Positions 13,327-62,138 of a DNA stretch of 64,000 nucleotides are shown piece by piece. Under the pieces are notes generated by a model. The model was not told where the DNA came from, made no database searches, and worked only from the letters and a program-made list of their open reading frames with translations. This DNA is from a virus. Where the stretch lies: positions 62,001-126,000 of IMG/VR virus record IMGVR_UViG_3300022188_000006; one strand, given 5' to 3'. The position numbers were made by a program, and so were the translations under genes. Position 1 is the stretch's first letter, and every line of letters begins with the position of its first letter.

Positions 13327-16300
13327 TTAGCCCCTACGCGCGATTTCCTCTTCGATGGTCGTACCACCGCTCCAGATACCGATGCGGAAGATAACGAACT
13401 CCGCTGGGAACGGAGGATTGATCCCGATCTCGCAGATCACGCGGCCATCCCGGATGTCGGCAATCGTGTTCGTCTCGTCATCACACTTCACGAAATACGC
13501 CTTCGTGTAGTCTGTGCTCGGGAACAACATCCCGCGGGTCCATAGGCTGTGCAGGAACTCAGCATTGACCGCCTCGACCTCAGCCCACAGCCTCGGGTCG
13601 ATGGGCTGGAATACCACCCAGCGGTTGCCGGCCTTGATCGACGCCTTCACAAAGTTGAGCAAACGCCGCACAGGGACGTAGTGACGCCCGTCGCGCAGAC
13701 TCGTAAGAGTACGAGCACCCCAGACCCGAATGCCTTCGCCCGGGAACTCCCGGATGCAGTTAATGCCAACCGGGTTCAGGATGTCCTGCTCGCCGTCACT
13801 CACGTTGTACGTCAGACCAAGGACGTTCCGCATCACGATGTTGGCCGGAGCAACATGCACGCCCCGTGTCGAGGCTACCTGAGCGTAAATACCCGCCATA
13901 TGTCCCGACGGAGGACGCTCGATAGTCGCCCCACTGTTGATTGGATCTCTCTCCAGCACCCACGGGTAGTACATCGCCACGTAGCTGCTATCTGCGTTGA
14001 GGTCATACATCCGATAGTTGTACACCTCGGTAGGCAAATCCGCATAGCGAGGCGGGTCGATGATGCACATGACGACACTGCGGTTCTCGCTGTAGCTGAT
14101 CATCTCGGTATGGACGATCTCGGTCGTCACGCCAGGAATGCAGAAGTAGTTCAGCTCCCGCACATCGTCCAGGAGGTACATACCCGACCGCGGATTCACG
14201 TCGCTGCCGATGAAGTCGTTATCAGTCGGGGTGGCCCCGTCCTGACCATGCTCAAGCGGCAGGGACACGACTGCGAGCGGGATGTTTCTCCAGAGGTCCG
14301 CAGGAGACGCATAGAGATCGATGAGTTCCACGATAAGCGACTCGTTGGTGTCACCGCTCAGGCGCACACCGAAGTAGTCGGAACTCTCTTCCTCCATGGA
14401 CAAGAACTGATGCGTCTCCTTCACAACGCCCTTCTCCAGCACCTGAACCATCCACTCCTCGCTGACAGCAAGCGCACCGGAAATGATGGTGTTGCTCAGG
14501 CTCACCGGAGCGAACCGAATCACGTTGCCGTCAATCGCCGTCACCTTCACATCCACCAGGTTGACCCCATCGCTGATGACCACTCGGGCACCGATCCGCA
14601 GCTGCCCCACAGACGCCACCGTGATGCGGTCAGCGCCATCCACAAGGTCTTCCATGGTGATCGTCGACATACGGTGCTGAGAGCAGGACTGGACAGGAGC
14701 ACCGGCAGGAATGATTCCAACCAGGTCGTCAATAAGTGGCAGAACGCTGACTTCGCGCGCGTTCACGTCGATTTCGGTCACAAGGCCGACATACCTCTTG
14801 CTGGCGAAGCTTGGATCATAGGTGTACAGGATATCGCCCTTGGACACGCCGCGGATAGACGAGAGTTGCAGCTTCGTGTCCCCGTTGAACACCTCACCAC
14901 GCAGCTCATGCTGCCAAGCGATTGTCCTGATCGACACGCTATTGCCCCAGGCCCCCGGATTCTCCGCTCGAACCAGGATGGACTCCATGAAGTCAGCGTC
15001 GGAACCACGATGCAGAGTGTTGTCGAAGCCCAACCCTTCGGCCGTGGTCGATGTCGCCACCTGAATCGTAGCAGAATCGCCGGTCGCCAGGGTCTCAATC
15101 ATTACTCCGCCGTTGGTCGTAGTTGTCGCGGAACCGCCCGAGATTGTAGCGTTCACTACATCGACGACCTCCTGAGCAGTGACCTTGTCGACATTCGCCA
15201 CGTTACCTGTACCCATGGTCACACCAACAGCGTGCATGAGAGCCGCAACCGCTGTCCCGCCGAGGATGTTGACCTTTGAGCCCGAACCGTATTGGTCGGC
15301 CTTGAAACTGAAAACATTCGCCGCAGCCGACATGGACCCGCCGCGAAGTCGCGGGTTCACGTAGTCCAGAACCTCCTGAACAGGAGCCGGGTTGGTCAGA
15401 CCCGTGAAAGTGATTGTTGTGGGGTCATAGCCGGAGAACTGGATCTGCAGTGTCTGCCCGTTCAAGTTGACAGGCACATAGGCACCGGACCCGTTGCGGA
15501 CCGCTTGCGTTCCTGTGAAGGTGAACACCTGTGTTGGCTGACCAGAGATGTCGACGTCGAGGTGCTCGCCTGCCTCCAGGTTGAACGGCTCCGTCAGCGA
15601 GGTGATGACCTTCGCAGAACTTCCAGCCGAGCCCCAGCCGTAGTGGATCTGATTATCAAAGTTGAAGGCAGACGCTGTCGTGCTTGCGGCGATCTGCACG
15701 GATACACTGGCGCCCTTCTCTACGGTAATAATCTGTAGTTCACCGTTCGGACTGGCTACTGCATAGGCGCCCTGCAAAGTGCCCAGCGCTGCTGCTGCGT
15801 CACTCGCGGTCACGCTGTCGATGTTCGGCACATTGCCCGTACCATATGCCTCGGTGATATCGTGACCGATGTCAGCTAAAGCTGTGCCACCGGTGATCTT
15901 CACGAAAGACCCGCTACCGATCTGGTCGGCCTGGAAGTCGATCTCGCCGCTGTTGACGATCGCCGAGCCACCTTGCAACAACGGGTTGAGGAAGTTCGCG
16001 ACATCGGTAGCGTTGGGATTCGCCGGCAAGCCGCTGAACGTGATCGTCGCCATGTCCCAGCCGGAGAACTGAATGAACAAGGTCTTACCGTTGATGTCGT
16101 TCCCGGTGAAGCCATTTCCGGAGACCAGCGCCTGAGTGCCGGTGAAGGTGAACACCTGGGTAGCATAACCGAGCACGTCGATGTCCAGATGCTCGCCGAC
16201 ATCCAGGTTGTAAGGACCAGCCGCACCTGCTACAACCTTTGCCGGACCTCCGCTATCGCCGGAATTCCGCATATTGGCCCAGCTCACGGCCGCGCCTTCA

Positions 16301-16566
16301 CCAACCACGCGCGCAATATACGCCCGTGTTCCGCCCTCATCGAAAAACGCCTCGACTGCGGGCTGTAGGTGGCTACCGCGGAAGATTTCCCCGCATCGCT
16401 CTTTGAACTGGTCCTTGTTTGTGACCAAAATGGCCCTGTCAATGGCGCCCTTCTCGGCGACACCGACAAAACCAGCTGTGTTCACACTGACACCAATCAC
16501 GCGCGGCCGACCAGCAGTCTCGACCACGTAAACTCCGGGGTGCAGTGTCTCGATAGCAACAGACAT
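13327..16566 (-). CDS. Tail sheath protein with two inserted beta-rich domains
   Basis: The 1079-residue protein is much longer than ordinary sheaths of about 400-700. Residues ~1-105 are the sheath N-terminus (HPGVYVVETAGRP, AFFDEGGTRAYIARV). Residues ~540-1079 hold the core and C-terminus (GHMAGIYAQVASTRGVHVAPAN, shown in part; GINCIREFPGEGIRVWGARTL; RWVVFQPIDPRLWAEV). The C-terminal FVIFRIGIWSGGTTIEEEIARRG (partly quoted) is the strand handed to the next ring. Residues ~108-308 and ~317-520 are tandem copies of one domain. It encodes the contractile outer tail; ATG 16566 follows TTGGAGG. Confidence 0.94.
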   Translation of the reverse strand: MSVAIETLHPGVYVVETAGRPRVIGVSVNTAGFVGVAEKGAIDRAILVTNKDQFKERCGEIFRGSHLQPAVEAFFDEGGTRAYIARVVGEGAAVSWANMRNSGDSGGPAKVVAGAAGPYNLDVGEHLDIDVLGYATQVFTFTGTQALVSGNGFTGNDINGKTLFIQFSGWDMATITFSGLPANPNATDVANFLNPLLQGGSAIVNSGEIDFQADQIGSGSFVKITGGTALADIGHDITEAYGTGNVPNIDSVTASDAAAALGTLQGAYAVASPNGELQIITVEKGASVSVQIAASTTASAFNFDNQIHYGWGSAGSSAKVITSLTEPFNLEAGEHLDVDISGQPTQVFTFTGTQAVRNGSGAYVPVNLNGQTLQIQFSGYDPTTITFTGLTNPAPVQEVLDYVNPRLRGGSMSAAANVFSFKADQYGSGSKVNILGGTAVAALMHAVGVTMGTGNVANVDKVTAQEVVDVVNATISGGSATTTTNGGVMIETLATGDSATIQVATSTTAEGLGFDNTLHRGSDADFMESILVRAENPGAWGNSVSIRTIAWQHELRGEVFNGDTKLQLSSIRGVSKGDILYTYDPSFASKRYVGLVTEIDVNAREVSVLPLIDDLVGIIPAGAPVQSCSQHRMSTITMEDLVDGADRITVASVGQLRIGARVVISDGVNLVDVKVTAIDGNVIRFAPVSLSNTIISGALAVSEEWMVQVLEKGVVKETHQFLSMEEESSDYFGVRLSGDTNESLIVELIDLYASPADLWRNIPLAVVSLPLEHGQDGATPTDNDFIGSDVNPRSGMYLLDDVRELNYFCIPGVTTEIVHTEMISYSENRSVVMCIIDPPRYADLPTEVYNYRMYDLNADSSYVAMYYPWVLERDPINSGATIERPPSGHMAGIYAQVASTRGVHVAPANIVMRNVLGLTYNVSDGEQDILNPVGINCIREFPGEGIRVWGARTLTSLRDGRHYVPVRRLLNFVKASIKAGNRWVVFQPIDPRLWAEVEAVNAEFLHSLWTRGMLFPSTDYTKAYFVKCDDETNTIADIRDGRVICEIGINPPFPAEFVIFRIGIWSGGTTIEEEIARRG
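15007..16245 (-). repeat. Tandem duplicated decoration-type domain inside the sheath gene
   Basis: Two ~200-residue units (sheath residues ~108-308 and ~317-520) share GEHLDIDV / GEHLDVDI, TQVFTFTGTQ in both, IQFSGWDMATITFSGL / IQFSGYDPTTITFTGL, FLNPLLQGGS / YVNPRLRGGS and YGTGNVPNID / MGTGNVANVD. Similarity is visible along the full unit, so this is a diverged protein-level duplication rather than a recent DNA repeat. The units should project from the sheath surface. Confidence 0.88.
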
Positions 16567-23026: not shown

Positions 23027-24904
23027 TTACATCTTGGACATGGCCTGCTTAGGGGCCAAACCAAGGATCCCACGCCAGACAGGCTGAGGACCATGGTCCT
23101 TCTGAATCTCGCCGTCCTGAATACCGCGCGGACCGCCCTGACGGGGAGCACCGGCGTTCTCTAGGGCTTCGAGACGCTTGCTGATCTCCTCAAACTTTTC
23201 ATTGGTCGAGGCCACCAGCTTCTCAGCGGTCTTCAGCACCATCTGACTTGTGGCTTCCAGACTCTTCTGGAGAACAGCGTCAATGCTCTTCTCCAGTGCC
23301 TTGCCGTAGTCGGCTGTCTCAGAAGCCTGCGGCAACTTGCTGCTCGCCTCCAGTGCCTGCTTCATTCCGGCAAGCTCGTCCTCGCTACCCGGCGACCCCG
23401 CAGCCTGACCCTCGCCATAGGCGGGAATCTTCCGCACGTCAGTCACCGAGGCGCGGGCCATGTCTCCCTCGCCTTCCTGCTTGTCGTCGTTAGCAGTGCC
23501 CTTCTTGGCAGCACTTTCAGTCGTCGGCGCGTAAGGCCCACCGTCGACGATCAGAGAAGCAACAGCCTCCGCGGCGTCTCCCTCGCCGTCGCCAGCCGCC
23601 TTCTCCATGACCTGCTCCGCGAGCAAGTACCGCACGTTCCAGAGCGCACCGCGCAGGGCTTCCTTCTCCACCGGACTCGCCCCACCAGTGTGCTTCACTT
23701 TTGCCAGAAGCAAAGCAATCTCCCGGACGATCTCCTCTTCGTCGGGCTCTTGCTTCTTCCGCTTCTGGATCTGGTTCCGACGACGCCGCGCCGCCATGAG
23801 AATCTTGGCAGCTTCTTCCTCCTCGGGCGTCATGTCGGTTTCTTCCTCTGTCTCGTCCTCCTCGGCCGCCTCTTCGTCCTCGGCCTTTTCCTCGGTCTCT
23901 TCCTCTTCCTCTTCTTCCTCACCGAGTTCGTCAGCAGCCTTCTCTTCTTCCTCTTCCCCTTCTTCTTCCTCTTCCCCTTCTTCCTCCTGGCCCTTCTGCT
24001 CTTCGTCTTCGTCGTCCATGGGCCAGCCCTTCTCTTCCTCTTCTTCCTCTGTCTGCTCTTCTTCCTCGCCCTCTCCAGCGGACCCGCCGGACAGAAGCTC
24101 GTCTACCTTCTTGGCTGTCTCCTCGACGGAGGACTGTTCGGAGGTTTCCTCTTCTTCACCCTCTTTCTTCTTGTCCTCCTCCTCGGACACAAGCCTGTCC
24201 TCATCGCTCTTCAACATATCTCCACCTCCGTTATTCTTTCCAAAAATTCGTCCGATACGAGCCAGGATACCAATACCCGTCTCGACATCCTCCAAAACCC
24301 CATCAGTCGCAGCCTTGTTCTCTGTCTGCTCCTGCGGTTCAACGTCTTTCCAGGCGTCCGCCTCATCGAGGGACTTCATGATGGCAGCCACAAAACCGGT
24401 CCTCGGGTTCGCCGCGTGTTTGGGCCGGGTGCAAGCGATGTGGTCGAGGTCCAAATCGTTGATCATCCTGACCAGACCCTTTTCGGTCATCTGAATTGAA
24501 ATCGCATTCGGGTTCTTGAGGTTGAGCTTGCCCCCAACGGACAGCTGCTTCTCGCACTTGCCGTCCTTTACCTCCTTAAAGAGTGCGCGTGCCTGTGGCC
24601 AGTCACCGTCCAGTTCGAGGTCAACAACAAAACGCCGACACTGTTTGCCGTCTTCCTCTTTGGTGATCACTGCCCCGTTTACTGTACGCCCGAACTCGAA
24701 GGTCGCCTTGTGGTTGTCCAGGAGCGGCACGCCACGCTTGGCGTCCTGGGCCATCTTTTCCAGCGCCTTCTCGCTCATCACGTCGCTTTGGAGATCCGCC
24801 AGGTCGTCACTCGCCACGGCCACCACGTGCATCTTGCCCTTCTCGTCCTGGTAGGCTTTCTCCACCATGACCGCGGCTTCCCAAGGGACTTCTTTGGCTG
24901 CCAT
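23027..24904 (-). CDS. Prohead protease fused to scaffold
   Basis: The 625-residue protein starts with an HK97/U35-type prohead protease (residues ~1-190), with the catalytic His in PLLDNHKATFEFG (~His65) and Ser in KQLSVGGKLNL (~Ser122). The rest is a scaffold: a very acidic Glu-rich stretch at about 240-370, then charged helices and a C-terminal coiled coil (VLKTAEKLVASTNEKFEEIS). Protease and scaffold are therefore one polypeptide. It lies between portal and capsid genes; ATG 24904 follows AAAGG. Confidence 0.9.
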   Translation of the reverse strand: MAAKEVPWEAAVMVEKAYQDEKGKMHVVAVASDDLADLQSDVMSEKALEKMAQDAKRGVPLLDNHKATFEFGRTVNGAVITKEEDGKQCRRFVVDLELDGDWPQARALFKEVKDGKCEKQLSVGGKLNLKNPNAISIQMTEKGLVRMINDLDLDHIACTRPKHAANPRTGFVAAIMKSLDEADAWKDVEPQEQTENKAATDGVLEDVETGIGILARIGRIFGKNNGGGDMLKSDEDRLVSEEEDKKKEGEEEETSEQSSVEETAKKVDELLSGGSAGEGEEEEQTEEEEEEKGWPMDDEDEEQKGQEEEGEEEEEGEEEEEKAADELGEEEEEEEETEEKAEDEEAAEEDETEEETDMTPEEEEAAKILMAARRRRNQIQKRKKQEPDEEEIVREIALLLAKVKHTGGASPVEKEALRGALWNVRYLLAEQVMEKAAGDGEGDAAEAVASLIVDGGPYAPTTESAAKKGTANDDKQEGEGDMARASVTDVRKIPAYGEGQAAGSPGSEDELAGMKQALEASSKLPQASETADYGKALEKSIDAVLQKSLEATSQMVLKTAEKLVASTNEKFEEISKRLEALENAGAPRQGGPRGIQDGEIQKDHGPQPVWRGILGLAPKQAMSKM

Positions 24905-24930: not shown

Positions 24931-26799
24931 TTACTCGCGTTCATCTGCTTCCACTGTAAGCACCGCGCGTGTCTGGCTAAGAGCCTTCGCGTCCTCCATC
25001 AGGCTGCGTGCTAGGACAAGCGCCTGATTCAGGTCAACCTTACTTTTATTATGCACAGAACCACCCTCCAAGCCAAGGGCCTGCAAGGCAATTGCTTCAG
25101 TTCCTTCAGGTTCTTCCTCTCTCTGTTCTTCTCGGGCATCGACCGGTTTTTCCCAATCTTCGATGTTATCAGAAGCAGGCAAGGCTTCTTCCTCAGCACC
25201 ACCTGGAGCAGCCTCTCCAGCTTCGCCACCTCCCAACATTCCGCCCATACCAGAAGCAGCAGCCTCCTGTTGCGCCTGCGTCTGCTCCTTCTGGTGCTCA
25301 ATCTGGGACTTCCACTCACCAATAATAGCTTCTGCCAGTTGCATACTGAGTTCAGCCATAGCAACCTGCATAGGCTTGTCAGCGAACTTGTAATCAGACG
25401 GATATGGAGGCTTGCCAATGCTCTGCCGAAGTTCATTCGGAGTCAACGCACCAAGACTGGCATAGGTCTGATCCATCCGCGCAGTATCAAGCGGGTCCGT
25501 TAGCTTCATGCGCTCAAAGCGGAATCGAACAAGCGGAACCTCACCCAGAATCCCCGGAATAAGCTTCTGGTTGATGATGTATTCTTTTTCGAGTCGATCG
25601 GGTTCGAAGATTTGCTCGTTGGTGATTTCGCGCTGTACCTGCGCCGAAGCCTTGTTCACTGACTCTGCAGCAAAGAACGCCTGACTGATGCCGAATACCT
25701 CGCGAATCTCCTCGTCGTTGGCACTGCGGTATTGGTTGAAGCTGGCATCTTCAGTAACGCCGACCGTCAGAGGCTTCAGGTCTAGGCGAACGCGCTCCCG
25801 GTTTTGCTGAAAACCCGTACTAGTGGGTTCTGTTTGAACTACGACCAGAGCCCCCGCCTTCTCAACACCCTGGACTTTCGCTTTGAAGAACTCTTCAAGC
25901 TTTTGCACGGATTCAGGTGTGAGCCGCCCACCAGCAACGAGCAGTGCCATCCGCGGCACTGCATCGTTCTCAAAGAAGCTCACGTTCCGGATCGCCGCCA
26001 GACGGTTTCCACTGATGGCCGGCGCCGTCGAGACGTACCTAGGAGCCCCATACCACGTACTCGTGGGACTGTAGAGCTTGAAATGCAGAATTTCGCTCGC
26101 TCGGCGCTCTAGCGGAATGTTGTCTCCATATTGCCCCGTCTTGGCATCCATCTGCAGCGGGTCACCAAACTCCTTGAAGTACCGCTTCTCGCTTCCCCGA
26201 ATCTGGATGTAACCGCCTATGACAGGCGTTTTATCATTGCCTTTTTTGACTCTGATTCTCATGCTCACAGATGGAACATGGTAGATACTGACAATCTCGT
26301 TCTTCATGTTCCTGACCACTTCGAGGTAGCCATTCCCGGTCGCCTCCTCGTCGACTTTGAGTGCGAAAAACAACTGACTCGTCGGCATCTCCGGATTCGG
26401 CCTCTCAAAGAGGATACGCAATCGCTCCATCTGCGATTGGATCTTGCGCTTAATTTCCGGCTCGGTATCGGGGCCGATAGCCACAATCGGCTCGATGAAC
26501 CACCCGAGCCCGACTGTGTTCCTTGCGTAAGTTCTGATGCAGCGGCTAAGCCGAGTGCTCTGCTCCATAGCCGTCGCCCATACCTGCGGGTTGAACCTTG
26601 GCGGAACAAACTCCCCGCCAGCAAGAGCACTAAACGGGTCACCCTTGATCTGCTTGCTGGCATCCCCGCTTACTGCCTGTTGGTCAGCAGGCGCGTCAGC
26701 TTCGGCCGCTTTGCCAAATATAGACACGTTGAGTGCCCGCTCGGCACTTGTCACCGACGGCCCGGTCCTGCCTAGTACTGCCTCGTAATCAGCTTCCAT
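24931..26799 (-). CDS. Portal protein
   Basis: The 622-residue protein has the typical layout of HK97/PBSX-type portals: ATAMEQSTRLSRCIRTYARN near the N-terminus, the FFALKVDEEATGNGYLEVVRN strand-turn (quoted in part), LHFKLYSPTSTWYGAPRYVS, and the stem/clip region KVQGVEKAGALVVVQTEP. About 60 C-terminal residues are Gly/Ala/Glu-rich and probably disordered. The start is ATG 26799 with GAGG 7 nt upstream; the GTG one codon earlier is less likely. It forms the 12-mer DNA channel. Confidence 0.93.
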   Translation of the reverse strand: MEADYEAVLGRTGPSVTSAERALNVSIFGKAAEADAPADQQAVSGDASKQIKGDPFSALAGGEFVPPRFNPQVWATAMEQSTRLSRCIRTYARNTVGLGWFIEPIVAIGPDTEPEIKRKIQSQMERLRILFERPNPEMPTSQLFFALKVDEEATGNGYLEVVRNMKNEIVSIYHVPSVSMRIRVKKGNDKTPVIGGYIQIRGSEKRYFKEFGDPLQMDAKTGQYGDNIPLERRASEILHFKLYSPTSTWYGAPRYVSTAPAISGNRLAAIRNVSFFENDAVPRMALLVAGGRLTPESVQKLEEFFKAKVQGVEKAGALVVVQTEPTSTGFQQNRERVRLDLKPLTVGVTEDASFNQYRSANDEEIREVFGISQAFFAAESVNKASAQVQREITNEQIFEPDRLEKEYIINQKLIPGILGEVPLVRFRFERMKLTDPLDTARMDQTYASLGALTPNELRQSIGKPPYPSDYKFADKPMQVAMAELSMQLAEAIIGEWKSQIEHQKEQTQAQQEAAASGMGGMLGGGEAGEAAPGGAEEEALPASDNIEDWEKPVDAREEQREEEPEGTEAIALQALGLEGGSVHNKSKVDLNQALVLARSLMEDAKALSQTRAVLTVEADERE

Positions 26800-26822
26800 C
26801 ACTTTCCCTCGCGGCCACAGGC

Positions 26823-34068: not shown

Positions 34069-34391
34069 CCGACCACCCCCTCAAAAATGGCAGCGTAAGC
34101 GGCATCCTCTGCGTCCAGCTTCGTCCGCAACCGATCACGCGGAGAGAAAAGGAACTGCTGCCCCCGGGCCACCTCTGCAAATAGGTATGTGTTATTTACG
34201 GACCTGTGCACCTTTTCCAGCACTTCTCCCGCTGGCGCCTTCAGGTCGATTCCATCCATCCAATCCTCGTCAGCGCGTCCTCGCAGCAATACCGCCTTTC
34301 CGTCCTTGACAGCCCATTCCTGGACGATCACACAATCCCGTGTGCGCGGGTTTTGCTCGTAGACGGTCATGACAACATTACCAGCGGCCAC
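34065..34391 (-). CDS. Small uncharacterised protein after the kinase-like gene
   Basis: 108 residues, overlapping the kinase-like gene by 14 bp and the propeller gene by 4 bp, so the three are translationally coupled. The centre (AEVARGQQFLFSPRDRLRTK) resembles phage tail-fibre neck pieces only faintly. Function not recognised. Confidence 0.65.
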   Translation of the reverse strand: MAAGNVVMTVYEQNPRTRDCVIVQEWAVKDGKAVLLRGRADEDWMDGIDLKAPAGEVLEKVHRSVNNTYLFAEVARGQQFLFSPRDRLRTKLDAEDAAYAAIFEGVVG

Positions 34392-35208
34392 CTAGTTTCC
34401 TCCATGTCCGCATTTTCTTGAGTTCCGAGTGACGCTTGAGAACCCCGTCTAGCTCACGGTCGCCCATTCGTGCCTCAGTCATTGCTTCCGCAACAGCCTC
34501 TAAGTCGGCCTTCTCCAGTATCTGCCGGACATCCTCGGTTATTTCTTTGCCGACGAGTCTCCGCCCAATCACAGAAAGCATATGCGTCCTGTCATCGCCG
34601 GAGGTAAAGGCGTAACCGTTGTCTATAGCGTAAATCCGCTTCTGCGGATCCACGAGCAGATTGCTTGCATGTCGGTCAATCTGTCCGCAGATAAAGTCGA
34701 ATGCAGCACAACGATGAAACCAGGGATTTTCTGGATGCTGCCGATAATCGTATCGCCCCGACCGGCGTAACTCACTCAACAATGGCAACCTGACCCACGC
34801 CATCATAGAACCGGAACCTTCATTGTCTAGCGTTCTGCCGACAACAGGGGGGACCAGGTCGAACCCATATATCCGGTCCAGCTTATACACCAGAAGCTCT
34901 CGCTCCGAAGGGCTCACCTTCGGATCCATTGCCGACAAGTACCGCCCGGTCTCATATCTAAACTCGTGCTTCTTAAATACAGCCTGTGTACAGTCGATAA
35001 AACCCTTGCGGAACGAAGTTTTCAATCTAACTCTCAAGGGACGATGGATCCCCTTGCCGATGGGCTCAGAGTACAGCTCTTCCGCCTGGGTTAGCACCAG
35101 ACAACATTTGGCGTGGTCCAGATCGTCCAGACCCTTATCAAGATCAGCCGGCGCGAAGCCGGCCGACCTCCGCATACCGGAGAGTAGCCCACCAGTCAGC
35201 GCGTTCAT
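34378..35208 (-). CDS. FAM20/PI3K-like kinase fold protein 1
   Basis: The 276-residue protein has kinase-type motifs: a candidate nucleotide-binding Lys (VFKKHEFRYE, ~79-80), then SERELLVYKLDRIYGFDLVP (~101-120, the pattern of HipA/FAM20/PI3K-like kinases), the catalytic loop DRHASNLLVD (Asp179, Asn183) and the metal-binding IYAIDNGYAF (Asp196). All residues needed for phosphotransfer look present. The substrate (protein, lipid or sugar) is unknown. It is encoded among fibre genes, so virion packaging is possible. Its relative is at 45822-47705. Confidence 0.72.
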   Translation of the reverse strand: MNALTGGLLSGMRRSAGFAPADLDKGLDDLDHAKCCLVLTQAEELYSEPIGKGIHRPLRVRLKTSFRKGFIDCTQAVFKKHEFRYETGRYLSAMDPKVSPSERELLVYKLDRIYGFDLVPPVVGRTLDNEGSGSMMAWVRLPLLSELRRSGRYDYRQHPENPWFHRCAAFDFICGQIDRHASNLLVDPQKRIYAIDNGYAFTSGDDRTHMLSVIGRRLVGKEITEDVRQILEKADLEAVAEAMTEARMGDRELDGVLKRHSELKKMRTWRKLGGRW

Positions 35209-38103: not shown

Positions 38104-39987
38104 CTACACAACGATGACGTTCTGAACGTACTTCGCCGAATCAAAAGGGTTCACAACGAAATCAGGAACGTCTACAGCAACCTCGTTCAGACCATCTTCA
38201 TCGAACTTCCTAGCCATCGCGCGCCGTTGTTTCTCTGCCTTTTTTGCTTCGAGCAACCGCGTTTGCACCTCAGCAGCGGACGCCTTCTCGATGTCTGGAC
38301 CAAATTCGTCCTCGAAACGGAAATTCATCATGAGACACATGAGCGCGTCTGGTCCGTGATCCTTCTTCTTTAGGATGGCACCGGTAGTCTCGGACCTACG
38401 GTAAGCCTTCAGTTGCTCGATTAGTATTTCCAGTGCCTTGTTTATGCGTATGCGCCTGAACACGAAGTACTTCGAAACATTTTCAATGCCTATCTTCTTC
38501 CATGTCCCGAAATTTATCGGCCGCACATCAAAACCAGCGCTAGAGAGTTCCGCGTTGTTGAATGGGTGAGACGAGTCTGCCAATACGGGGAACTCGCCAA
38601 ACAGTGTCTTCCAATCGCGCAACTTTGTAGCTACATCGGAGACCAGCACGTGGTCTGTAAACTCAGCCTCATGGATATAAACACATTCCCTCGTGCGTAT
38701 CCCCAGGATCATCACCATGCTTCCCTGAGACTGAATACCCCAGTCGATACCAACCGCCGCCCTATCCACCGCACTGTCGATAAGGATAGGATCAGTAAGA
38801 GAAGCCTCAATCAGCTCAGGTGCATAGACGCAAGACGAATACGACGGGCGTTCGCAGGCAAACTCGGTCTCAAAGACGGTCGTCCCGGCATTCATCTCCT
38901 TAGCTTCTGACACCATTTTGAAGGTGGCCCAGCCGTCACTGTGGCGCGCCTTTCCGTAACACCCCTTAAATACCTCTGTCTTCTTACCATCGGGACCATC
39001 CACCAAAACCCTGTCCGTCAAATAGCACCTCTTGCAGTACTCAAGAGCTTCCGGATCATCCTCCGTCGCCTCTTCGAGACCCCTCGTGCATCGTTCCATA
39101 GTATCAAACACGTTCCAGTTGTACCGCTGAAATCCCTTCTCCCTGTAACCATCCCAATACTCTTGGAACAGGCCGTGCGGTATATGGAACGTAGAAAACA
39201 AGCACACAATTGAATCCGGCTCTGACAGCGCGCCCTGCAAAGCAGCCCGCATCGCCTTTTCGACTCTGCGGTCCTCCTGGCAAACCTCGTCCACAAAAAT
39301 TGTCCCAAAGTGCTTGCCGCGTCCTTGTTTCTCCGTCGCCGGCACACACTTCAAGAGAACACCTGTCACCAACCGGGTGACATCAGAAAGCGGATCGCCG
39401 AGCAGGAGACCGTCACGCAACCCGGGCACAGCATCCCAGAACATCTTCACGTAGTCATAAACAACTTTCGACTGTTCCCCCGAACCTGCCACATCCAGTA
39501 TTTCCCGCTTCCAGTAGATGAGGAGCAACCAGATCAGCACAGCAGCCGAAAGAGATCCACCGCCACCACGCGGCTTCCAAGTGATCGTCTTTCGAACTCG
39601 ACCAAAAAACACGTCGCCGACCCATTTGATGATCGGCGGAATGAGCTTCACATAGGTCTTTTTGCCGTCCTTAATTACGTATAAGGTTTCCCCGACAAAT
39701 GATGCAAGCCTTTCGTGTTGCCGCTTTATGTATGCTTCTTCACTTTCTTCGTATCCCAAGGGCTCGCGAACCCAGCCGTCTGTCACGTGCCAGCCTTTTT
39801 CGGCAGCCGTAACGGCGCTCATCTCTGGATCATAGACACCCTGCTTGAAGCCACGGGGAAACAGCAGATCAGGCAAACCGTAAGCACCCGGATATCCCCT
39901 TGCGAGACGATCCCTGATCTCTCGCTCAAGCAGCAGAAGCTGTCGTAGCTTCTCCTCTTTGCTTTGGCTCGCCTTACGTTTTTTCAC
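38104..39987 (-). CDS. Terminase large subunit
   Basis: The 627-residue protein has a deviant Walker A-like segment (WKPRGGGGSLSAA), a Walker B (FGTIFVDEVC) and coupling motif (VCLFSTF). The C-terminal RNase H-type nuclease has Asp in VGIDWG, ADSSHPFNN and KKKDHGPDAL. It packages DNA through the portal. Starts with GTG at 39987; the hairpin at 39999-40022 lies just upstream. The lysine lies before the Gly loop, as in lambda gpA, instead of at the end. Confidence 0.92.
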   Translation of the reverse strand: MKKRKASQSKEEKLRQLLLLEREIRDRLARGYPGAYGLPDLLFPRGFKQGVYDPEMSAVTAAEKGWHVTDGWVREPLGYEESEEAYIKRQHERLASFVGETLYVIKDGKKTYVKLIPPIIKWVGDVFFGRVRKTITWKPRGGGGSLSAAVLIWLLLIYWKREILDVAGSGEQSKVVYDYVKMFWDAVPGLRDGLLLGDPLSDVTRLVTGVLLKCVPATEKQGRGKHFGTIFVDEVCQEDRRVEKAMRAALQGALSEPDSIVCLFSTFHIPHGLFQEYWDGYREKGFQRYNWNVFDTMERCTRGLEEATEDDPEALEYCKRCYLTDRVLVDGPDGKKTEVFKGCYGKARHSDGWATFKMVSEAKEMNAGTTVFETEFACERPSYSSCVYAPELIEASLTDPILIDSAVDRAAVGIDWGIQSQGSMVMILGIRTRECVYIHEAEFTDHVLVSDVATKLRDWKTLFGEFPVLADSSHPFNNAELSSAGFDVRPINFGTWKKIGIENVSKYFVFRRIRINKALEILIEQLKAYRRSETTGAILKKKDHGPDALMCLMMNFRFEDEFGPDIEKASAAEVQTRLLEAKKAEKQRRAMARKFDEDGLNEVAVDVPDFVVNPFDSAKYVQNVIVV

Positions 39988-45343: not shown

Positions 45344-45847
45344 CTATCCTGCCATTTGCAAGGTGTCGCCTACCTGCCGAATCCGGCCGGACTTAACAAG
45401 TACCTCCACCACCTCAGGAGCAACAGGATTTCTTTTACCATCAACACGCACAAGTACCGGTTGCGTCCCCATGGCCCTGTGCACCATTGTTATCCTGGCG
45501 TCATTTTGCAGAAAGAACATGAGATGGTTCGGATTCCTTATGATTCTTCCATCTGGATAGATCGGGGATCTGGCTGTCGATAGAGTCTTTGTCCTCGGCT
45601 CAAACAGCGTTTCCTTTGACTCAGGTTCTTTTCCTGCTACAGGTTCGCTTTTGCTTCCAAGAACACCGAGAACCTTGTCCAGCGCCTGCTCCACTGCACG
45701 CTCAGCCACTGCTATGTTTAGAGCAGGCGCAATTCTAGTCTTTTGCTCCGCAGGTCCTTTGTCCGCAATGACCGCGGTCCCGGCAGCACGAAGATTTTCT
45801 CCGTCCCAGACAAAATTCGTCTCATTCTGAACCCGGCGCATTGGCAT
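45344..45847 (-). CDS. Uncharacterised protein
   Basis: 167 residues if started at ATG 45847; two other in-frame starts (45880 and 45841) are possible and none has a strong ribosome-binding site. The C-terminal part (MFFLQNDARITMVHRAMGT) looks like a small alpha/beta domain. No family recognised. Confidence 0.55.
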   Translation of the reverse strand: MPMRRVQNETNFVWDGENLRAAGTAVIADKGPAEQKTRIAPALNIAVAERAVEQALDKVLGVLGSKSEPVAGKEPESKETLFEPRTKTLSTARSPIYPDGRIIRNPNHLMFFLQNDARITMVHRAMGTQPVLVRVDGKRNPVAPEVVEVLVKSGRIRQVGDTLQMAG

Positions 45848-47705
45848 TCGTCCGAGGAACAATTCTGACCATCGAACCACAAAAACTCAAGGGCAGATCC
45901 TGCACAAACTTCTCTGGGGTGTTCGTCGTAATTCGCTCGCCCAGGGGTCCCAGGTAACCGCCCATTACGTACTCCACAAGCGGATTTTCCTCGCCGCTGA
46001 GCACCACAACCTTGTCACCCTTTAGGGCGATCTCCCCGACAAGCTTTTGGTCTTTTCCAGCACCGGTGTAGACCTGCATAATCTCAGCGTTCTCAGACTT
46101 CAATATGAAGTCCTCTAGTTGGCGCAGAGCCATCGCAACAGTAGCCATCTCTGCCGCGTGTGGTTTCGGTTTAGGTGGCTTAGGTGTCTGGAGAGACCTT
46201 GCTCCCATGGCAAGCTCTACCATGTTCAACGTGCGAGGTAACCTGCCTTTCTCCTTTATTCGCCTAAGACGCGCAATGACACCGTTGGCTTCCTTACCTA
46301 GGCCCCATTTTTCCAAGGTTTTCTTTAGTTGTCCCTCGTCTACTTTTTGCAGCTGCGAGACGATCCGCTTGTCTATCTTCCCGCCGTTGTACTCATGGGA
46401 AAGCCAGTGAGGCACAGACGTAAAACCGTGAAAATCGCCTCGTTCATCACTGATCGGGAAGTTGAACCCATTGTCGATCGCGAATGCTTGCTTTCGGTCA
46501 GCACTGACCAAGTAATTCCCGAAGTGCCTGTCTGTGGCCCCTGTAAGGTAGTCAAAGACGGCCATTTTTTCCACGGAAAACCTGAAATCAGGATCGTTTT
46601 CGAAGTGCATCTGCGTCTTCGCCCGTGAAAAGTCACTCCCGCTCATAGCCCCTTCGACAAAATGCTGCCTAGAAGCAGAAGCCTCCGGATTCAGTGCAGC
46701 CTCTTGCAGTTCCTTCAAGGCTTCTTTTGAGAGCTTATTTTCCTTGTAAGCAGCCTGGAGTTCTGGGTGCATCAGAACCTGCTTGACAACCCTTGCTCTA
46801 TCCTCGGCCGCTACCTGCGTCTTTGTCTTTACTGTTGGCGGGACAATGCCGAAACCCAGCAACCTGTCCACCTCAAAAGCCGCCGCTTCGCGCGCCCCCA
46901 CCGACACTTTTTCGTTGAGAATACCACGCCGCATGAAACTAATCGGTGGACCAAGTCCATCCGGCTTTGTTACGCTCTTGCTGCCATCAGGTGCCTGATC
47001 GAAGTAAACCAGTGTTCGGCTGTCAATGCCTGCTTGCTCCCGTTTCACCGGGTCAGAGCGCAGAGCTTTTTCTACTTGCTCTAGGTGTCCTTCCCAAGGA
47101 GCTGACGAGAGTGCACCCTTCTTGTAAACAAAATCTCCCCATCCCGTCTCTTCGTCGTGCTTGGCCGGACCGGCCTCCCTCTCATCCAGCTTGTCGAGTT
47201 TTTCTGCTATCTCCCGCAATATGCCGTAAGCTTTCTGGATCTGCTCGGCATCCCCTTTCTTGAATCCATCACGCAAAAGCTGAGCAAACTCCTTCGCCCG
47301 TGTGCTAATCTGTTCCAGGACCTTCTTCTGATGCTCAGTAGTAGCCTTGGTTTTCATTTCGCGGAACCGCTCACCGAACTTCTTCATTAGTTCGGCAGAC
47401 TTCCGCTTCAGGTCCGGTGTTGCCTGCCTCGACGATCTCAACTGTCGGACAACGCTCTCGACCTCCTGGGCCAGCTTCGATGTCTTCGGGGACGGCCCTG
47501 CCACGGTCTCAGTCTTTGCGCCCTTGGGCGGCGTGTCCGAATACTCATAGGTACCATCGGGCAATTTACGCCGCCAGAGATGGCGCTTCCTGCCCGTGCG
47601 TCCCTCTGGGTCTGGGGGCTCCCAATCACCGACCTTCGCTTTCAATAGCAGGCTAAACTGCGTCAGCGATTCAACGATGGCTTCCCTGGAAAGATCCGCG
47701 ATCAC
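45822..47705 (-). CDS. FAM20/PI3K-like kinase fold protein 2, with basic N-terminal region
   Basis: The 627-residue protein starts with GTG at 47705. Residues ~1-75 include KLPDGTYEYSDTPP, a motif I have seen associated with phage head proteins. A coiled region follows to ~180. The kinase part has AREAAAFEVDRLLGFGIVPP (271-290), the catalytic loop DRHFGNYLV (Asp392, Asn397) and AIDNGFNFP (Asp411). These match the protein at 34378-35208. Catalytic residues are kept. Likely a virion or head-associated kinase; substrate unknown. Confidence 0.72.
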   Translation of the reverse strand: MIADLSREAIVESLTQFSLLLKAKVGDWEPPDPEGRTGRKRHLWRRKLPDGTYEYSDTPPKGAKTETVAGPSPKTSKLAQEVESVVRQLRSSRQATPDLKRKSAELMKKFGERFREMKTKATTEHQKKVLEQISTRAKEFAQLLRDGFKKGDAEQIQKAYGILREIAEKLDKLDEREAGPAKHDEETGWGDFVYKKGALSSAPWEGHLEQVEKALRSDPVKREQAGIDSRTLVYFDQAPDGSKSVTKPDGLGPPISFMRRGILNEKVSVGAREAAAFEVDRLLGFGIVPPTVKTKTQVAAEDRARVVKQVLMHPELQAAYKENKLSKEALKELQEAALNPEASASRQHFVEGAMSGSDFSRAKTQMHFENDPDFRFSVEKMAVFDYLTGATDRHFGNYLVSADRKQAFAIDNGFNFPISDERGDFHGFTSVPHWLSHEYNGGKIDKRIVSQLQKVDEGQLKKTLEKWGLGKEANGVIARLRRIKEKGRLPRTLNMVELAMGARSLQTPKPPKPKPHAAEMATVAMALRQLEDFILKSENAEIMQVYTGAGKDQKLVGEIALKGDKVVVLSGEENPLVEYVMGGYLGPLGERITTNTPEKFVQDLPLSFCGSMVRIVPRTNANAPGSE

Positions 47706-49126: not shown

Positions 49127-49339
49127 TTACGAACAAAGAGAATGAATGATCTCCTCCGTTCTTATCCTGCGTATCACAATCTGCTTTCCAGCCCAGAGAC
49201 TGGGTAAAGCTTCTCCGACAGGCTCCAACGCACCCGTGACCCACACGTACCACTTATTTGGGCGTTCTTCAACGAATACTACGCCCGTCGTGGCACTGAG
49301 GGCCAGTTTATACAGATCCGTAGCGACCTTACTGTTCAT
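49127..49339 (-). CDS. Small beta-rich protein after superoxide dismutase
   Basis: 70 residues. ATG 49339 fits AGGA upstream; the TTG 18 bp earlier does not. The sequence (TGVVFVEERPNKWYVWVTG, then IVIRRIRTEEIIHSLCS) suggests a small beta-hairpin protein. Overlaps the dismutase stop by 11 bp, so expression is coupled. Unknown role. Confidence 0.6.
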   Translation of the reverse strand: MNSKVATDLYKLALSATTGVVFVEERPNKWYVWVTGALEPVGEALPSLWAGKQIVIRRIRTEEIIHSLCS

Positions 49340-50048
49340 GCCAGTTCCTGTCAGCAAAGCCCCAGTTGACGAGCTGTCTTACAGCCTTATTCAGGTACGA
49401 CCGCCTATCGCTCTGATAGTCGAGATAGTAGGCATGCTCCCACAGGTCTATCGCGAGCAGCGGAGTCATACTCTCATCCAGCAGTGGTCCCGCGGCATTT
49501 TCCCCGTAAACGACTTCTGGCTCTTCGTTTCTCTTGACCAGCCACAACCAACCGGAGCCAAAGAGTTTATCCCCCATGTCTACCATGACACGCCGGCATT
49601 CTTCGGTCGAACCATATTTCCTTCGCACCGCAGACAGCAGATCACCTGTTGGCGCTGTGTCCTGACCAGGAGGGGATATAGACATCCAATAGAATGCGTG
49701 ATTCCAGGCTTCCCCCGCACGTCTGGCAAGCACCTTGTTCCCATCTGCTCCAGAAGAAATGAGACTTCTCAGATCTTCTTGCTCGAATCGAGTCCCGCGA
49801 ACCATTTCCCTCACAAGATCCACGTACCTCTTGTGTATGCGAACGTGCGCCTCGATTGTATCCCTTGAGAGAGCGGGCGACAGCTCACCCATCTTGAAAG
49901 GTAATGCTGGCATCACTAGGCGGCCAGCAATGTCTGTAGCCGGCTGTTCGTTACCTTTTTGCTGCTTCACCTTTGTCACAAAGGCTGCATTGCTCCCCAC
50001 AGATTTCAGGAGAGCCCCAAAACCTCCTAGACCAATGCCTGTCTGCAT
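49329..50048 (-). CDS. Fe/Mn superoxide dismutase homologue
   Basis: 239 residues from ATG 50048 (GGGAGGAG upstream). After a ~40-residue phage-specific N-terminus, the SOD family is clear: MPALPFKMGELSPALSRDTI, WNHAFYW, GSGWLWLV and IDLWEHAYYLDYQSDRRSYL. The four metal ligands are present (His68, His117, Asp201, His205), as is the Tyr gateway. The residue aligning with the second-sphere Gln of Fe-SOD (Gln69 in E. coli SodB) is Glu here (AGEAWNH). Activity is thus not certain. It leads the late operon. Confidence 0.9.
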   Translation of the reverse strand: MQTGIGLGGFGALLKSVGSNAAFVTKVKQQKGNEQPATDIAGRLVMPALPFKMGELSPALSRDTIEAHVRIHKRYVDLVREMVRGTRFEQEDLRSLISSGADGNKVLARRAGEAWNHAFYWMSISPPGQDTAPTGDLLSAVRRKYGSTEECRRVMVDMGDKLFGSGWLWLVKRNEEPEVVYGENAAGPLLDESMTPLLAIDLWEHAYYLDYQSDRRSYLNKAVRQLVNWGFADRNWHEQ

Positions 50049-50119
50049 GCTCTCCTCCCATACACCGCCGGCAGACACCGCCTAGCAGTATCAACCGAAG
50101 CAAACGCACTGTTATTTTA

Positions 50120-50148
50120 ATCTTATCTATGCCCGGCAAGGGAGTCAA
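50120..50148 (-). promoter_or_regulatory. Sigma70-type promoter of the first late operon
   Basis: On the minus strand TTGACT and TAAGAT are 17 bp apart, followed by an AT-rich discriminator (TAAAATAAC). It stands between the hairpin at 50160-50187 and the dismutase gene, the only long gap (about 280 bp) in this half of the window. Confidence 0.8.
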
Positions 50149-50159
50149 GCAGAAGCAAG

Positions 50160-50187
50160 AGGGGCGCATGGCTGATCATGCGCCCCT
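50160..50187 (-). terminator. Second hairpin in the gap downstream of the reductase gene
   Basis: AGGGGCGCATG and CATGCGCCCCT form an 11-bp stem with a 6-nt loop, followed on the minus strand by the moderately U-rich CTCTTGCTTCT. It may be a back-up terminator shielding the late promoter, which starts 11 bp further on. Confidence 0.55.
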
Positions 50188-50271: not shown

Positions 50272-50306
50272 AAAAACGAGAGTCACGCCGGGCGAGCGTG
50301 ACTCTC
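50272..50306 (-). terminator. Intrinsic terminator after the ribonucleotide reductase gene
   Basis: GAGAGTCACGC and GCGTGACTCTC form an 11-bp stem around TCGCCCG, followed on the minus strand by GTTTTTCC. It separates the early/metabolic genes from the late operon. Confidence 0.88.
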
Positions 50307-50360: not shown

Positions 50361-52376
50361 TCAATCGTCCTGGAGAACAATCCTGCAAGAGTTATTCTTG
50401 CATTCAAGTTCTCCTGCAGCACTGAACTTCATTTCTGCTGCGTCGTAATCTTCTTTTTCGATGCGTTCATACGGCATCTGCGGTCGGTTTGAAACAGTGG
50501 GCATGACTGTCGTACCCTTCAGGTGCGGCCCGAAAGCAATGAGAGCGCGTTCAACATCCTCCACAGTCACCTTTTCGGGATCCACGTTGACAGTGAAGGA
50601 AATCGAGTTGTCCACATAGCTGTCCTGAACTGTCTTCTGTACGTCAAGGTATTCCTCCAGGGTCAGGTCTGTCGACTCCTCGACAAGCCCCGGATCAATT
50701 TCGGGATCGTCCAGTATCTTAGCCCGACAGATGTAAGAAACTACCTTCGTATTGGGACTATAAAGCGAATCCTCTACATCGAGTCCGTTCTTTTCTGCCT
50801 CTTCGACGATTTTCCGTTGGTTTTCGTCGCTCATCAAATAGGCCACGCGACGCCGAAAATACCGGAACATCACCGGCTGCATACCCTCCGAACACCCCGC
50901 CAGCTTAGATGTCGAGCCCGTGGGAGCACACGTGCTCACCTTCACAGGTTCAGGTATCCTCAGTTCGAAAGCATACTCGCGCGCTGCATTCCTTACCATC
51001 TTTGCCGCCTTCTGCAGGGCGGTCTTCTGCCTTTCGGCCGACGGAAACTCACTGAACCGCACGCCTTCCCTTACCAACCAATCGGCAAATCCCGTAAATC
51101 CGACGCCAATTCTCCTATCGCGTAGCACAACCTCACGTGCAGGCCCCTCCGGATAGTCGGCATACGTAGCACGGATGAGGAATCGCGTCATCAGCCTAAA
51201 CGCTTCCAACATTCCAGCCAAATCATGTGCAAATTTGCCCAAATTCACACTCCCGAGGATGCAGCTCCCCCACTCCGGCAGCGTTATCTCCCCACAAGGA
51301 TTTGTGCAAACAATCTTGTTTGGCTCTCCCTCATTCGCTTTCGTTATGTTGAATATCCCAGGCTCACCATTTGACAGGGCTCCTTCGGCAATCATCCGCA
51401 TAATCTTTTGAGCGTGTGCATCCTTTCGTCGAAGTGCCAGCCAAAAGTAACTGTCAAGCACAATCGAGATATTCGTGGTCCAGTGCGCTGAGCCATCAGC
51501 TTTCAGGTCAAGAAACCTCTCGATGTCCTCGTCCTTCCAATGCTTCATTGACATCCTGGCACTACGCCGGGAGCTTCCAGCAACTACGCAGCGGGCAATC
51601 TCATGGTCTATATCCAGACAGAGAAATGAATCCGGTTTCGTGCCGACAGCGGCATTCATTCTGTCCGCGACCGACAAAAGCATCTCTACAAGTGCGGCAG
51701 GTCCACTGGCAACCCCACCAAACCTCTTCAGTCGACTGCCGCTCGGCCGCACATGCGAGACATCGAACACCACCTCCTTTGCCCGTTCACCCTTTTCATA
51801 ATATAGGTCTAACATGAGCCCGAGAGCGTCCACCCAGCCCTCGCGGCTATCTTCCACCTGGATCGCACCGGCCCAAGAGGCAGCATATTTCTTCGATAGG
51901 AATCCGCGTATCTGCTCATAGTCTTTGTGTGCTTCATCGCAAACAACATGGACATCCACCGGGTGATGGATTCTGCCGTACCGGCACACGAAGGGATTGC
52001 TGTAGTTTGCGCCGACACCACCTCCTTCCATCAGGCGCGCAAAGGTAAATCGGAAGTGCTCAGAAAATTTTTCACCCCACCCGGACACCCAGCAGTTTGC
52101 CACCGTTTGTACACCTATCGCGCCCGTCGACCAAAGGTGTCGTCCGCCGGGCAGAAGCTTAAAATGGTAGATAAGGTTGAACAGCTTCTCAGGCTCTCCG
52201 CGCTCTATGAACCTCTTCGGCACAAACCTGCAGTTTCCTTCTACGACCCGTTTGACTGTTTCTGCCCACTCTTCCTTGCTACCATCCGGCTTGGTTCGAC
52301 TGTATGTTCGCCGGAAAATATCCTCTCCAAGAGAACCCCACGAAGGCGCATCGAGCCGTTCAGGAAGCCGCAGCAT
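50361..52376 (-). CDS. nrdJ: Class II (adenosylcobalamin-dependent) ribonucleotide reductase
   Basis: 671 residues from ATG 52376 (AAAGGAGG six nt upstream). It is of the monomeric triphosphate-reductase type: LLPGGRHLWSTG, the loop cysteine in ANCWVSG, the radical cysteine in TNPCGEI with its partner 11 residues later in SCILGSVNL (the spacing of L. leichmannii RTPR C408/C419), the APTGSTSKLAGCSEGMQP segment and redox cysteines at the C-terminus (CKNNSC). It makes dNTPs and needs B12 from the host or medium. No NrdB-type subunit is present in the window. Confidence 0.92.
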   Translation of the reverse strand: MLRLPERLDAPSWGSLGEDIFRRTYSRTKPDGSKEEWAETVKRVVEGNCRFVPKRFIERGEPEKLFNLIYHFKLLPGGRHLWSTGAIGVQTVANCWVSGWGEKFSEHFRFTFARLMEGGGVGANYSNPFVCRYGRIHHPVDVHVVCDEAHKDYEQIRGFLSKKYAASWAGAIQVEDSREGWVDALGLMLDLYYEKGERAKEVVFDVSHVRPSGSRLKRFGGVASGPAALVEMLLSVADRMNAAVGTKPDSFLCLDIDHEIARCVVAGSSRRSARMSMKHWKDEDIERFLDLKADGSAHWTTNISIVLDSYFWLALRRKDAHAQKIMRMIAEGALSNGEPGIFNITKANEGEPNKIVCTNPCGEITLPEWGSCILGSVNLGKFAHDLAGMLEAFRLMTRFLIRATYADYPEGPAREVVLRDRRIGVGFTGFADWLVREGVRFSEFPSAERQKTALQKAAKMVRNAAREYAFELRIPEPVKVSTCAPTGSTSKLAGCSEGMQPVMFRYFRRRVAYLMSDENQRKIVEEAEKNGLDVEDSLYSPNTKVVSYICRAKILDDPEIDPGLVEESTDLTLEEYLDVQKTVQDSYVDNSISFTVNVDPEKVTVEDVERALIAFGPHLKGTTVMPTVSNRPQMPYERIEKEDYDAAEMKFSAAGELECKNNSCRIVLQDD

Positions 52377-52420
52377 CCCTCTCCTCCTTTCCACTCTGTT
52401 CAACCAAAACCGGATAGGCT

Positions 52421-61699: not shown

Positions 61700-62138
61700 C
61701 GTTCTTCCCTCCGCGCAATTTTCTCAACAATTCCTTATTTCGGGCCACACCGGCCGTCTTGTCACCGCGAAGTTCTACCTCGTCGATATTTGTAGTCATC
61801 TCGGAACTGAACACCTCGGAAGCTAGAGCCTCCTTGATATTGGGAACGCCAGCATCACCGGAAACTGGGCTAGCCGTAGCCGGCACCGCAAGTCCCGAAA
61901 GTTTTTCCTCAAGCACTTCGGCCAGCATCTCCCGCAAAGCATTTGGATCCTGCTGTACACTGATACTTACCTCCTGCGGCGTTTTTTGTGCTGCGGATCC
62001 AACGGCTGCCAAAAACACCATTCGCATGACCTCTTTTAGTTCCGCCTTGTCCTTTTCGTTGAGGCTACGGAGCCGCGCCTTCTGTCGATCAAGGCGTGCC
62101 CACAATCTCTCAAAGGCTTCGACAGCTTCGTTATTCAA
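61692..62138 (-). CDS. Coupled upstream partner of the actin-like gene
   Basis: 148 residues if started at TTG 62138 (overlapping the previous stop, TTGA); a longer reading begins upstream. Helical (FERLWARLDRQKARLRSLNE) with a linker and a C-terminal RNKELLRKLRGGKNDA tail. The overlap with the actin-like ATPase suggests an adaptor (ParR-like in position, not recognisable in sequence). Confidence 0.6.
   Translation of the reverse strand: MNNEAVEAFERLWARLDRQKARLRSLNEKDKAELKEVMRMVFLAAVGSAAQKTPQEVSISVQQDPNALREMLAEVLEEKLSGLAVPATASPVSGDAGVPNIKEALASEVFSSEMTTNIDEVELRGDKTAGVARNKELLRKLRGGKNDA

Follow-up and report, generated by a model that had tools for sequence, protein, structure and literature searches.

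The window, a stretch of 64,000 nt (positions 62,001 to 126,000 of IMG/VR record IMGVR_UViG_3300022188_000006, whose full length is 156,275 bases), encodes a superoxide dismutase (SOD) that probably derives from bacterial SodB (SodFM2). The enzyme family is a known one, but the protein is confirmed as a very unusual member of it, and the SODs of other phages add interest to its setting. We favour, tentatively and with somewhat less than even confidence, the reading that it is a late-made, metal-binding, redox-altered SOD whose N-terminal extension probably targets it to the particle.

Almost every gene of the window is read from the minus strand. The SOD gene and the signals around it are as follows.

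49329..50048, minus strand: SOD-fold protein, 239 aa, ATG at 50048, stop codon at 49331-49329 (ORF, Pfam and PDB matches, model, Foldseek/VIA)
50052..50059, minus strand: strong ribosome-binding site GGGAGGAG, 3 nt ahead of the ATG (read from the sequence)
50120..50148, minus strand: sigma-70-like promoter match TTGACT-17-TAAGAT (regional count not above chance)
50160..50187, minus strand: hairpin resembling a terminator, ahead of the SOD unit (sequence)
50278..50306, minus strand: second hairpin of this type, following the RNR gene (sequence)
49127..49339, minus strand: next ORF (ATG at 49339), overlapping the SOD stop codon (ORF list)

A start at Met46 rather than Met1 is less likely, because the strong ribosome-binding site sits before Met1. 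The overlap of the SOD stop codon with the next ORF suggests that the two are probably co-transcribed. Upstream, SOD is separated from the RNR gene by the two terminator-like hairpins and the promoter-like match. The region holds 5 promoter-like matches, and 5.0 were expected from shuffles; since the two counts are equal, a SOD promoter is plausible, not demonstrated. The RNR gene itself (50361-52403, directly upstream of SOD) encodes a class II (B12-dependent) ribonucleotide reductase scoring above the TIGR02505 cut-off.

Downstream of SOD, the same strand carries genes for packaging and virion structure, those for a tail sheath protein and a baseplate J protein among them.

38104..39987, minus strand: TerL-like gene, downstream of SOD in the same-strand block (profile match)
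24931..26802, minus strand: portal protein gene (profile match)
23027..24904, minus strand: 625-aa protein after the portal, a possible prohead protease (weak Peptidase_S78_2 match at 24620-24847, below cut-off)

This gene content points to a myovirus-type phage, and the position of the TerL, portal, sheath and tail genes makes SOD the first gene of a packaging and structural block. The initial annotation had placed SOD at the head of a late operon behind its own promoter. The first part stands, in that SOD leads the TerL/portal/tail block after two terminators; the second is plausible but not demonstrated, the promoter match being no better than chance. We call SOD late from gene content alone, and it would be produced together with the packaging and structural proteins. 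The same block also encodes two PI3/PI4-kinase-like proteins (45822-47705 and 34378-35208, the second below the Pfam cut-off). The tail sheath protein (13327-16566) is very long (1079 aa), with a large insertion inside the stretch that matches the profile.

We asked whether the protein is a complete Fe/Mn SOD with all four metal ligands, as had been claimed, and found that it is. Both Pfam domains scored above their cut-offs (Sod_Fe_C, PF02777: 1.6e-27, 95.9 bits versus 20.9; Sod_Fe_N, PF00081: 7.4e-12, 46.0 bits versus 27), the ligands are H68, H117, D201 and H205, and 162 PDB sequences matched the protein (best 1.2e-44), the best solved structures being Fe-SODs. An AlphaFold model built from a 40-sequence alignment reached a mean pLDDT of 86 and a pTM of 0.81; the modelled domain covers residues 43-239, with pLDDT >90 over most of this stretch. 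The model has the two-domain SOD fold: Foldseek returned 3tqj, 1isa and 2nyb (TM (target) 0.92), VIA gave a Z of 28 (rmsd 1.3), and with both programs the matches were Fe-SODs, among them SodB of E. coli and the Q69E mutant of that enzyme. A fold unrelated to SOD, which the initial annotation had named as grounds for abandoning its claim, is ruled out by these matches. The NCBIfam superoxide dismutase [Fe] equivalog (NF007832) scored 143 bits, below its threshold of 348, yet it was the best-scoring family.

The active site was examined in an alignment of 208 SODs that comprised cellular and viral proteins, SodB, human MnSOD and the window protein. It placed the relevant residues as follows.

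49845..49847, minus strand: ligand His68 (alignment)
49698..49700, minus strand: ligand His117 (alignment)
49446..49448, minus strand: ligand Asp201 (alignment)
49434..49436, minus strand: ligand His205 (alignment)
49710..49712, minus strand: Glu113, at the SodB Gln69 column (alignment)
49722..49724, minus strand: Arg109, at SodB Asn65, which is N/D/H/Q in nearly all others (alignment)
49824..49847, minus strand: shortened first-helix segment His68-Val-Arg-Ile-His72-Lys-Arg-Tyr75, 8 residues not 9 (alignment)
49914..50048, minus strand: stretch encoding residues 1-45, the N-terminal extension, not in cellular SodB (alignment; low pLDDT)

The proposed replacement of the Fe-SOD Gln69 by Glu was thus borne out. 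Retention of the Gln at another site, a possibility that had been raised against it, is ruled out because the C-terminal Gln/His position holds Ala. In the other 207 proteins the water-coordinating residue is an N-terminal Gln (128), a C-terminal Gln (72) or a C-terminal His (7). All 207 therefore carry the Gln or C-terminal His expected of a functional SOD; the window protein, with Glu at the N-terminal place and Ala at the C-terminal one, is the only one of the 208 to carry neither. Parts of Sendra et al. 2023 (PMC10172142) define SOD subfamilies by these Gln/His residues, Glu not being listed there, and give SodFM2s an N-terminal Gln, where the window protein has Glu113. The SOD of phage PA5oct, considered as a second protein without a water ligand, was rejected: its C-terminal His is present ('NH' motif). 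Two DNA-motif scans of IMG/VR yielded no other Glu-type protein among the real SODs that they recovered. Of 120 Pseudomonadota genomes, 50 had the motif in its Gln version, while a search of 398 for the Glu version found none, although Gln and Glu codons are one base apart.

A missing residue between the first His ligand and the gateway Tyr had also been reported, and the count agrees: His68 to Tyr75 spans 8 residues, versus 9 in 206 of the 207 other SODs, the last row being a fragment without that stretch. Where the gap falls in helix 1 is ambiguous, so that His72 may correspond to SodB His30 or His31. Compared with SodB, the window protein shares the fold, the four ligands, the gateway Tyr and an N-terminal-type active site with Ala at the C-terminal Gln place. 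It differs by Gln69 to Glu, Asn65 to Arg, a first helix one residue shorter, Ala instead of Thr at the X(D-2) residue and a 45-residue extension.

The nearest cellular relatives are gammaproteobacterial SodB proteins (42-43% identity). In the tree, the window protein groups with alphaproteobacterial and viral SodFM2 proteins (96/98), a placement that is lost once the other viral rows are removed, and its branch is the longest of all, at 2.1-3.3 changes per column. GC and codon use of the gene match those of the phage's own genes, which argues against a recent import; a bacterial Fe-SOD (SodB, SodFM2 type) may have been acquired long ago by the myovirus lineage of the window. We found no close relative of the window SOD. 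The phage lineage itself is nearly an orphan: searches of IMG/VR with TerL, RNR, PolA and a kinase-like protein found no close relatives, tblastn with TerL had no match among 50,697 phage records, and the portal alone found IMG/VR relatives, namely three short contigs (61-73% identity) without SOD.

Divergence has reached the most conserved positions. Among 35 columns conserved at ≥95%, 7 are changed in the window protein versus 3-5 in other viral SodFM2-type proteins, as might be seen if an acquired SOD were drifting out of function. Such decay is very unlikely, however: the frame is intact, the ribosome-binding site is strong, the composition is phage-like, the gene overlaps the next one translationally and every ligand is kept. 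Loss of the Gln, the shortened helix and the Asn65Arg change would also suit a non-catalytic structural or scaffolding protein derived from the SOD fold. FeSOD-like PAP4 and PAP9, subunits of the plastid RNA polymerase, are of this kind, and precedent chains such as 8qma and 8r6s are among the structural matches. We consider this origin distinctly unlikely, since at such divergence some ligand loss would be expected and none has occurred. On the longest branch of the tree, the protein still has its ligands, gateway Tyr75, the Trp residues around them and the EH-x-x-Y motif, which implies selection on the metal site. That so divergent a protein retains every ligand and the gateway residue speaks, as far as sequence can tell, for a functional metal site rather than for a solely structural part.

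What might the altered site do? Glu113 is the same substitution as in the engineered E. coli FeSOD Q69E (2BKB and 2NYB, sequence and title checked). The E. coli protein has its Glu at the matching position of this fold, but it is a laboratory mutant that is wild type in all else, whereas the phage SOD has further second-sphere changes. Yikilmaz, Miller and colleagues are said to have found in 2006-2007 that Q69E lifts the FeSOD midpoint potential by >660 mV; the mutant reportedly retains its fold, the potential rising because Glu prefers coordinated water over hydroxide. To our knowledge, work on the Gln/Glu switch at position 69 has dealt with an engineered mutation, which moves the Fe redox potential by hundreds of millivolts. 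If a natural protein carries Glu at this place, it would allow the use of the change to be tested directly.

We infer that the window SOD binds metal and that Glu113 affects its redox behaviour. A mononuclear Fe or Mn would be held in the standard three-His/one-Asp site, and Glu113 in place of the water-coordinating Gln, together with Arg109, would retune it so that the reduced, water-bound M(II) state is favoured. Arg109 lies one helical turn before Glu113 on the same helix face, and from this helix spacing we infer that the two may be in contact; the neighbouring Arg would then help Glu113 to stay ionised. If M(II) is favoured, we would expect little classic dismutation; the protein may instead react with superoxide in one direction, possibly reducing it, or serve as a metal-binding virion component.

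About 40 extra residues had been noted ahead of the domain; we count about 43-45, with the domain starting near residue 43-46. The extension is modelled with low confidence (pLDDT <50 for residues 1-33) and has no similarity above shuffles to other proteins of the same phage. By analogy with the CTS-like propeptides that phage SODs appear to carry, it would direct SOD to the particle or hold it there; such targeting is probable, and virion delivery possible. The (L/I)xE cleavage motif is not in the extension, whose sole Glu belongs to GNE at 32-34. The phage record has no match to an S77 (gp21-type) prohead protease, which would not exclude the gene if the record is a fragment. With these two results and the weak S78_2 match, packaging stands as an analogy rather than a demonstrated feature.

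The initial annotation called SOD in a virion operon unusual. This needs correction: SOD genes are common among phages, with relatives of the window SOD in at least 598 stretches of IMG/VR, and two contigs carry SOD near gp23. Most of the best 80 relatives are SodFM1-type and belong to phages that have T4-like genes. The N-terminal extensions of these SODs close with a conserved (L/I)xE (for example FLNE, LITE or LISE) immediately ahead of the domain, and the shorter ones resemble T4 capsid-targeting sequences (MSFEKYADLILEA, MEELKRYITIIEA and, in PA5oct, MNDSIKKYISIAEA). When viral SODs with an extension are grouped into 12 clusters, 10 of these have (L/I)xE within the last 14 residues before the domain (shuffle mean 4.1; 1 of 5000 shuffles reaches 10). 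In T4, propeptides of this sort, about 10 residues long, target the internal proteins, and gp21 then cuts behind the Glu (PMC9026906, PMC3012670). An S77 protease was present in 7 of 13 records with an extended SOD versus 1 of 15 without extension (one-sided Fisher p about 0.009, with records that are non-independent and possibly fragments).

In the two contigs, L017 and L020, an Fe-type (SodFM2) SOD precedes gp23 by about 2 kb; an acidic scaffold-like protein is encoded between the two and an S77 protease nearby. These SODs resemble that of the window in being SodFM2-type, in having an N-terminal extension and in lying within a virion-assembly gene block. Unlike it, they keep Gln69 and the 9-residue helix spacing, their extension is T4-like (MKLK..L..E), and the genome has an S77 protease and gp23, both of which L017 encodes. 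Several small genes of these head modules (L017:2523-5591, L020:1487-5636), SOD included, begin alike with M(I)KLK.L..E, and these starts probably belong to one family of capsid-targeting sequences. Next to SOD is a volactin-like actin homologue. An N-terminal extension is also present on the SodFM1-type SODs that freshwater T4-like phages encode and on the phage-encoded PA5oct-type SOD; they differ from the window SOD in their C-terminal Gln or His water ligand and in an extension ending (L/I)xE. GenBank has an ESI-MS/MS note on the PA5oct SOD; this is no proof of packaging because several PA5oct metabolic enzymes bear the same note.

These comparisons bear on whether the window SOD is an ordinary auxiliary enzyme, an active, unpackaged SOD that limits superoxide damage in the infected cell, with a neutral or regulatory extension and with Glu113 tolerated through Arg109-like compensation. 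All ligands and the gateway Tyr are kept, SOD genes are common in phages, and many phage SODs have neither an extension nor a prohead-type motif. Yet the change falls on the very position that determines the redox potential, where the 207 others without exception have Gln or Gln/His, and the gene heads the structural block rather than lying among metabolic genes. We therefore see this as a possible but less than likely account. The redox-altered, particle-targeted SOD that we prefer can be taken further: SODs may be recurrent phage head cargo, delivered with the DNA by means of capsid-targeting propeptides, and here the Glu-tuned site would reduce superoxide or do another metal-based job on arrival, without normal dismutation. 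In this general form the idea is unlikely. None of the papers searched treats phage SOD and capsid targeting together; the CTS-like propeptides on phage SODs and the two gp23/prohead-protease cases make SOD in the head, acting against oxidative stress at entry, a testable proposal.

Some of the freshwater T4-like phage SodFM1/PA5oct-type SODs carry further fused domains, unlike the window SOD. In L032:4905-6440, L024:4884-6443, L031:4899-6437 and L058, a SodFM1-type SOD is fused to a C-terminal region of roughly 280 residues, and an additional (L/I)xE lies between SOD and this region; the region has no Pfam match and a GG(I/V)D...QIKP pattern resembling a PD-(D/E)xK nuclease core. In L007:4530-5615, L070:1573-3702 and L002, a domain with a LAHEW(V/S)H zinc-peptidase-like motif lies ahead of SOD.
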